From Mycolicibacterium hassiacum DSM 44199 (GTDB lineage Bacteria > Actinomycetota > Actinomycetes > Mycobacteriales > Mycobacteriaceae): DNA of 64,000 bases. The translations under genes were made by a program, and so were the position numbers. The stretch spans positions 868,001-932,000 of the forward strand of contig NZ_LR026975.1 in assembly GCF_900603025.1 (NCBI RefSeq). The letters are read 5' to 3'. Positions within the stretch are counted from its first letter, which is position 1; each line of letters begins with the position of its first letter. Below are positions 42,638 to 43,524 of this stretch, piece after piece. The notes under the pieces were generated by a model, which was given only the letters and a program-made list of their open reading frames with translations, searched no databases and was not told the DNA's origin.

Positions 42638-42652
42638 TGTTGATGTCCCGCG

Positions 42653-42800
42653 CCGGAGGCGCAAAACGAGTCCAGCCGGAGGCGCAAAACGAGTCCAGCC
42701 GGAGGCGCAAAACGAGTCCAGCCGGAGGCGCAAAACGAGTCCAGCCGGAGGCGCAAAACGAGTCCAGCCGGAGGCGCAAAACGAGTCCAGCCGGAGGCGC
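42653..42800. repeat. VNTR-like array, 23-bp unit, 6.4 copies
   Basis: Unit CCGGAGGCGCAAAACGAGTC-CAG repeated six times without change, plus a 10-base partial copy. It sits between the TauE-like start and the promoter of the LeuA-domain gene. Because 23 is not a multiple of three, it reads open in rotating frames and creates spurious long ORFs. Confidence 0.97.
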
Positions 42801-42863
42801 CGCCGAGTGGCGTGACCTGGGGCGCACCGGCCGATCGATGACGAAACGTTGCCGAAAAGTTGT

Positions 42864-42892
42864 TTGCGCGGTGTCGGTGCGAGGTCTACTAT
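42864..42892 (+). promoter_or_regulatory. Promoter of the LeuA-domain operon
   Basis: -35 TTGCGC at 42864-42869, 17-bp spacer, -10 TACTAT at 42887-42892. The expected transcription start is 42899-42900, exactly at the GTG of the leader peptide. Confidence 0.6.
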
Positions 42893-42899
42893 CGCGAAC

Positions 42900-42941
42900 G
42901 TGCCGAGGCGACTCGTAGTAGCAATCCACAGCGGGGTCTGA
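42900..42941 (+). CDS. Leaderless leader peptide rich in branched-chain codons
   Basis: GTG at 42900 opens a 13-codon frame MPRRLVVAIHSGV ending in TGA. It has five branched-chain codons (Leu, Val, Val, Ile, Val), four of them clustered. The -10 box ends 8 bases before the start, so the transcript would begin at the GTG, a common arrangement in mycobacteria. The Val-Val-Ala-Ile codons lie in the left arm of the hairpin at 42916-42974, so a ribosome stalled for lack of charged tRNA would open that stem. Typical geometry of ribosome-mediated attenuation. Expression is not proven. Confidence 0.6.
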   Translation: MPRRLVVAIHSGV

Positions 42942-42974
42942 TCCAGACCGACCCCCCGCTGTGGGTCGCTGCTA
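42916..42974 (+). promoter_or_regulatory. Long hairpin, probable attenuator of the LeuA-domain gene
   Basis: TAGTAGCAATCCACAGCGGG pairs with CCCGCTGTGGGTCGCTGCTA (about 20 bp allowing three G-U-type mismatches). A smaller stem GGTCTG-ATC-CAGACC lies in its loop, and GACCC...GGGTC offers an alternative fold. No T-run follows, so the switch could act on translation or Rho rather than intrinsic termination. Confidence 0.6.
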
Positions 42975-43020
42975 TTCGCTCATTTGTCGGTCGCCAACCC
43001 TCGATCCAGAGATCCGGCAC

Positions 43021-43524
43021 ATGACAATCACTCATCCACATTCGTTGGCATCCGGTACGGAACTCCCTAGCGGTATTGGCGTCGAGATGGACGTTCCCCT
43101 GCCCCGAGGTCTGCGTGAAGAGGCTCACGCGCCGACGTTTCAGGCCTTCCTGGCCCAGTACCCGCCGAGCCCCGGTCCGCTGCAGCTGAACCGGTGGATC
43201 TGCGTCGATGAGGGCCGTCCCGCCACCCGGTGGGGCCCCCAGGCCCGCAACTACCAGGCCACCCTGGCGTTCGGCGACCGGGTCAGCACGTCGTCGGCGA
43301 CCGCCTGCGGGCCGGTGGCAGCGCTCACCGAGATGCTCTACCAGCGCGGGATCGCGGTGGAGTTGACCGCGTTCCACCAGCTTCCGGCCGGCGAGCACAC
43401 CGCGACGTTTCTCCGCGGCTCCGACGGCGGGCGGTCGGAGTGGGGCCTGGGCCTGGCCGACGACCCGACCAGCTCGGCGCTGCACGCGGTCATCGCGTGT
43501 GCGAACCGGTTGCTGTCGTCGTAA
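43021..43524 (+). CDS. Orphan LeuA allosteric (regulatory) domain protein
   Basis: 167 residues from ATG at 43021. LQLNRWICVDEG, then ACGPVAALTEMLYQRGIAVE and GLGLADDPTSSALHAVIACA match the C-terminal leucine-binding dimerisation domain of 2-isopropylmalate synthase (compare [20 protein letters not shown] in M. tuberculosis LeuA). The catalytic TIM barrel is absent. It might bind leucine, or hetero-associate with LeuA. The branched-chain leader peptide upstream supports a role linked to amino-acid supply. Function is otherwise unknown. Confidence 0.75.
   Translation: MTITHPHSLASGTELPSGIGVEMDVPLPRGLREEAHAPTFQAFLAQYPPSPGPLQLNRWICVDEGRPATRWGPQARNYQATLAFGDRVSTSSATACGPVAALTEMLYQRGIAVELTAFHQLPAGEHTATFLRGSDGGRSEWGLGLADDPTSSALHAVIACANRLLSS

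Follow-up and report, generated by a model that had tools for sequence, protein, structure and literature searches.

The window analysed here is the whole stretch of 64,000 nucleotides from contig NZ_LR026975.1 of Mycolicibacterium hassiacum DSM 44199 (family Mycobacteriaceae, order Mycobacteriales), and the locus of interest occupies its positions 42887 to 43524. A -10 hexamer, a very short reading frame and a hairpin precede a gene, here called the orphan, whose product matches only the C-terminal part of 2-isopropylmalate synthase (LeuA). The initial annotation of this DNA had described the same succession of leader, hairpin and LeuA-domain gene, and as an observation it is confirmed. The features, in window coordinates, are as follows.

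42887..42892, + strand: -10 hexamer TACTAT, 7 nt 5' of the leader GTG; a leaderless transcript is predicted
42900..42941, + strand: leader reading frame MPRRLVVAIHSGV and stop, 13 codons, start GTG at 42900; relatives read MPRRLVVATRSGV and stop or MKRVLVVHRRSGV and stop
42912..42920, + strand: proposed sensor codons CTC GTA GTA (Leu Val Val), from Val-Val conservation and the GTA excess in leaders
42926..42936, + strand: hairpin H1, 5' arm (CCACAGCGGGG), which overlaps the last part of the leader frame
42946..42952, + strand: loop segment B, GACCGAC, partner of segment C (helix H2)
42954..42964, + strand: 3' arm of H1 (CCCCGCTGTGG), with conserved pairing to the 5' arm
42986..42992, + strand: segment C, GTCGGTC, with B (H2) or the pre-start region (H3) as alternative partners
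43010..43020, + strand: pre-start region D (AGATCCGGCAC), partner of C (H3)
42900-42905, + strand: leader 5' end GTGCCG, able to pair with CGGCAC of D as a possible base stem
43021..43524, + strand: stand-alone protein of LeuA linker subdomain II and regulatory domain, 167 aa, from profile and fold matches

Between a TauE/SafE-like gene and the leader promoter, the window also carries a perfect 23-bp tandem repeat of 6.5 copies (42652-42800).

Leader peptide and its start

Leaders were sought at 77 loci. After exclusion of two duplicates (L020, of L007, and L040, from the genome of L038), 73 of the 75 remaining loci showed a short leader that ends at the hairpin; L059 and L060 gave none by the search pattern and stand outside the 73, and the starts of L051 and L054 were shifted by hand 9 nt upstream to an in-frame ATG. 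Because this choice of leaders favoured frame and box, the main evidence is a scan that took every ATG or GTG in the 75 nt before the hairpin, ignoring frame and stop. At 70 of the 73 loci a TAnnnT box is followed, 6-10 nt on, by a start codon, against 83 of 4,380 control stretches of the same loci, and 66 of these 70 starts are in frame with the hairpin and open, with four in the second frame and none in the third. The three misses (L062, L063 and L074, all of genus g23) are without a clear leaderless start. Earlier counts agree (69/73 leader lengths a multiple of three, 70/73 box-spaced starts) but are partly forced, the leaders having been picked with a preference for an upstream -10 box and for stopping close to the hairpin. 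The leader looks translated, and the -10 spacing suggests that it is transcribed leaderless; the spacing that a transcription start on the leader GTG, as initially proposed, would predict is seen here, with TACTAT 7 nt before it, and a spacing of 6-10 nt recurs at 70 of 73 loci.

The pair Val-Val is present in 66 of the 73 orphan leaders and absent from seven, and the three leaders with Leu-Leu-Leu each have Val-Val as well. Of the 225 Val codons in leaders, 127 are GTA, compared with 1 of 165 in six window genes, and the peptide ends in RSGV in 64/73. The Val-Val-Ala-Ile codons, which the initial annotation had placed within the hairpin and read as branched-chain sensors, are indeed located on its 5' side, and Val-Val is conserved. 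Ile was rejected as a conserved sensor residue: Ile after Ala is unique to this genome among the leaders compared, while a single Ile at any position (including after Ala) occurs in 20 of 73 leaders, mostly directly 5' of Leu-Val-Val. Conservation of leader and hairpin across mycobacteria, on which the initial annotation had staked its reading, is found there and in relatives too.

RNA pairings and the leuA element

Folding of the leader RNA gives -62.4 kcal/mol versus -39.9 for shuffles (z -5.7). Pairing was scored in an alignment (A1) of 69 leaders, with L062, L063, L068 and L074 left out. H1 is paired in 98.9% of cells (slid control at most 60.5%), H2, which joins B to C, in 94.1% (at most 52.4%), and H3, which joins C to the pre-start region, in 76.0% (at most 50.6%). 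Cells changed on both sides number 16 in H2 and 31 in H3, each reached by 0 of 500 shuffles; the number of pairs with two-sided changes and the number of pair types are not unusual in either helix (236 and 257 of 500 shuffles as high for H2, 482 and 466 for H3). B and C covary between the paralogous sets described below, in an automatic search in which a few rows gave other duplexes. For the base stem, H2 and H3, own duplexes are stronger than partner-swapped ones, a comparison that leaves shared descent in; that of the leader 5' end with the pre-start region scores -11.20 versus -9.82 (sd 0.26) when swapped and is weak in L041. In the LEU element of leuA, the base stem joins the run of sensor codons to the Shine-Dalgarno region of the gene; in the window, the putative stem engages the start codon side of the leader. 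RNAalifold recovered H1 alone, and Rfam held no family match to the window at the gathering threshold or to L093/L010 at E <= 1. The leaders of L038, L039, L048 and L065 end at TAG or TAA shortly before the hairpin, off the common register, with the RNA pairings retained.

A covariance model (R1) built from the 69 orphan leaders matches two sites only in this genome at E <= 0.01: the orphan site (E 4.0e-21) and a second at 4187063-4187182 (E 1.6e-9), directly 5' of full-length leuA. The leuA leader there begins with GTG, reads MQRVLLLGSRDGV and stop, and has a TACAGT box 8 nt 5' of it. The model matches 268 of 301 family genomes. Among 34 further sites in 17 genomes, 17 lie before leuA, nine before a second leuA-like gene (leuA2, with leaders such as MTRVLLLSRRGGA and stop), three before orphan-type genes and five in unrelated sequence; these last are the weak hits L130, L134, L135, L136 and L138. 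Order-wide, the model finds a site in 30 of 81 genomes. Of the 21 that lie outside the family, 18 carry the site ~1.3-1.5 kb 5' of a LeuA regulatory-domain match on the same contig; the domain match of G323 is on another contig, and G305 and G312 have none. All 24 hand-picked leuA-type sites have Leu-Leu-Leu in the leader and none has Val-Val; L109, L123 and L137, outside this set, also have Leu-Leu-Leu.

The genome of L059 has a match at E 9.6e-29, ~0.3 kb 5' of the matched part. At L060 (genus g3, small genomes) an ATG leader MQTNILKRVAKATNPGGGRQD starts 7 nt after a TAnnnT box, and GGACTAAC and GTTGGTCC are also present; the model has no match in g3 genomes among those listed, and by eye this leader is likely a diverged copy. 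In L153, L154, L155, L156 and L158, from other genera and two mycobacterial genomes, the second leuA-like gene has its own LEU element with Leu codons and the same -10 spacing.

The LEU element before leuA in Actinobacteria was described, in the accessible text of PMC1262725, as a leader with Leu codons, a pseudoknot and a base stem. The orphan element shares with it the leader peptide, a hairpin whose loop is able to pair with a downstream segment (a potential for pairing, not simultaneous formation) and a possible base stem to the start region, and one covariance model detects both. In contrast to the LEU element, it precedes not leuA but a gene for the C-terminal LeuA part only, and its sensor is mainly Val-Val, not a run of Leu. 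Judged by homology to the leuA element of the same genome, with leuA and leuA2 sites also found in other genera, the orphan leader is a paralogue of the leuA LEU element rather than a one-off. The LEU-element prediction is thereby extended to a set of paralogous, apparently leaderless switches before leuA, leuA2 and the LeuA-fragment gene, and their differing sensor codons offer a natural test of the importance of leader codons. PMC1262725 uses none of the terms leaderless, transcription start, homocitrate or paralog, and among the largely open-access papers searched, judged from listings, the openings of abstracts and selected passages, none describes the gene-leader pair. Other reports describe ribosome-protected uORFs before leuA and ilvB in M. 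abscessus (PMC4974804) and, for C. glutamicum, a leuA leader containing four Leu codons (PMC4046766).

Candidate modes of control

We consider it probable, with clear reservations, that the locus is a two-part module, consisting of a valine-reading leaderless attenuator of the LEU type and a LeuA-fragment gene that is made on valine shortage. Ribosomes would begin directly on the 5' GTG or ATG. With charged Val-tRNA in short supply, we infer that they stall at the Val codons, often the rare GTA, and cover the 5' arm of H1, whereupon B would pair with C; while C is held by B, H3 over the pre-start region would be blocked and the protein made. With ample valine, the ribosome would reach the UGA in the hairpin loop and mask B, leaving C to shut the start region. 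The protein would then be a signal of valine shortage. Given that H2 and H3 compete for one segment and that H3 covers the pre-start region, control of translation initiation is the best fit, and the proposed on/off direction follows from this geometry and the usual logic of ribosome-mediated attenuation. Leaderless peptide-coding leaders also occur in the Cys-responsive short-ORF attenuators of mycobacteria, which are described as translation attenuation (available text of PMC13236596, citing them, and of PMC4633059) but have Cys codons and cysteine-related genes.

Minimum free energy folding with the 5' end blocked (the 'stalled' case) gave no H2 in either of the two sequences tried; C was paired with the start region (H3) in both, opposite to the switch model, which counts against its simple form. 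The method cannot form pseudoknots. H1 and H2 may coexist as one, so the switch could operate differently.

The folding result sits more easily with the kind of RNA-structure or protein-binding switch that was put forward for the LEU element in 2005 (a pseudoknot together with a base stem), in which the peptide is minor or modulating and valine is not the signal. The hairpin and the B/C pairing are the best-conserved parts of the element and are kept at the four loci where the leader stops early; moreover, Streptomyces leuA leader mutations are reported, in the accessible text of PMC1262725, to be inconsistent with classical attenuation, and the paper argues against that mechanism for leuA. 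However, the box-spaced start codons (at 6-10 nt in 70 of 73 loci, with 66 of these in register with the stop in the hairpin) and the sensor residues that differ consistently between leuA-type and orphan leaders, together with their rare codons, make this explanation rather unlikely.

Transcription attenuation, in which the hairpin would be a terminator or a Rho-dependent site as in the M. tuberculosis ilvB1 attenuator, appears improbable. The ilvB1 leader (PMC13236596, available portion) has an LVVI uORF, a GUA regulatory codon, hairpins and a Rho-independent terminator, and it resembles the orphan in its uORF rich in branched-chain residues, its GUA codon and its hairpins. Yet a consensus scan found no terminator-like site in 42800-43100, no T-rich tract is visible by eye 3' of the hairpin in the 69-row alignment, and the conserved pairings extend to the start region. 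Unlike ilvB1, the orphan thus lacks an intrinsic terminator with a U-tract, and classical transcription attenuation is not indicated. The interpretation in the initial annotation was partly supported: the leader with its box spacing, the hairpin, the stand-alone domain and their conservation stood, and the corrections concern the paralogy of the leader, Ile as a sensor, the mode of attenuation and the binding of leucine.

The LeuA-type protein and its possible role

The sole Pfam match of the protein is LeuA_dimer (PF08502), at 18.7 bits and below the curated cut-off of 24.9; the same family is matched by 44 of the 49 members of alignment A2 at E <= 0.1. A single-sequence PDB search gave no match at E <= 10, and a profile search recovered the LeuA regulatory domain where it had failed. 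Structure prediction with structure and profile comparison points to the same homology: LeuA and citramalate synthase alone stand clearly above the rest of the VIA-align list, and the relatives by fold are the regulatory domains of LeuA (PDB 1sr9/3fig) and of citramalate synthase (3f6g/3f6h). What the protein retains of LeuA is the C-terminal part, made up of linker subdomain II and the regulatory domain with its two beta-beta-beta-alpha units; it has no catalytic barrel. Among the six leucine-contact positions given in the accessible text of PMC2704214, most orphans have Phe in place of Tyr, one Ala position coincides with an alignment gap, and a second Ala is substituted, most often by Thr. 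The initial description as the leucine-binding domain of LeuA alone holds for a stand-alone LeuA-type domain, with pocket residues that differ from those of LeuA.

The protein was found in 229 of 301 family genomes and 26 of 31 genera (E <= 1e-10), an undercount, as Val-type leaders (LVVAGRNGA, LVVAHSRSGV) also precede a related-looking frame at L107 and L110, whose genomes gave no match there. It is absent from one genome of the same genus, G085. Across the order, the profile finds matches (E <= 1e-6) in at least 140 of 150 genomes; among the matches listed, those outside the family lie nearly all in long leuA-sized frames, and G373 has a matching frame of 166 aa. A frame of 143-212 aa is open in all 73 translated loci, including L058 of G063, although one TAG lies within the match in each of three genomes (G020, G046 and G063). 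The 49 sequences of A2 share eight invariant residues, and their identity to the window protein is 32-63%. A tree of 93 regulatory domains, built on few columns, with long-branch warnings and the truncated leuA2 row L157 left out, places the 73 orphans to one side of a single branch (99/98), and leuA2 sequences do not form a single clade; for all these reasons the parent leuA copy of the orphan is left unassigned. It is very improbable that the protein is what is left of a leuA duplicate in decay, retained by chance with its promoter region, given that the missing barrel, the Pfam score under the cut-off, the divergent relatives and the internal TAGs, which would suit such decay, are met by the spread over the family, the frame open at every locus, the invariant residues and the common branch.

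Most plausibly, the protein acts in trans as a partner of LeuA or senses a ligand by itself, and we hypothesize that it controls leucine synthesis. LeuA stands at the branch point where 2-ketoisovalerate departs valine synthesis (PMC2704214). It is possible, though on balance unlikely, that at low Val-tRNA the Val-reading element allows the free regulatory domain to be made, and that this pairs with LeuA and lowers its use of 2-ketoisovalerate, leaving the shared precursor for valine (and pantothenate). Both foldings with a blocked 5' end, which favoured H3, weigh against this reading as well as against that of the valine-reading module. No conserved neighbour helps here: no family occurs in more than 9 of 44 contexts (frames of at least 120 aa within 8 kb, >100 bits), so genome context is silent on function. 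For a widespread gene that databases often label 'homocitrate synthase', the leader and the domain point to a part in the control of branched-chain amino acids and away from a catalytic one. Should the protein indeed act on LeuA, a piece of the enzyme would have become its regulator, tuned to a competing product of the branch point, and this fragment, with its duplicated, re-coded copy of the enzyme's RNA switch, would be a dedicated, family-wide trans-inhibitor of the parent enzyme.

Two genomes stand out in their LeuA-type sequences. G008 has LeuA-domain matches in four frames, one of 619 aa and three shorter ones (170, 175 and 263 aa), and the LeuA of G085 (L152) has several 19-residue repeats resembling those of M. 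tuberculosis LeuA.
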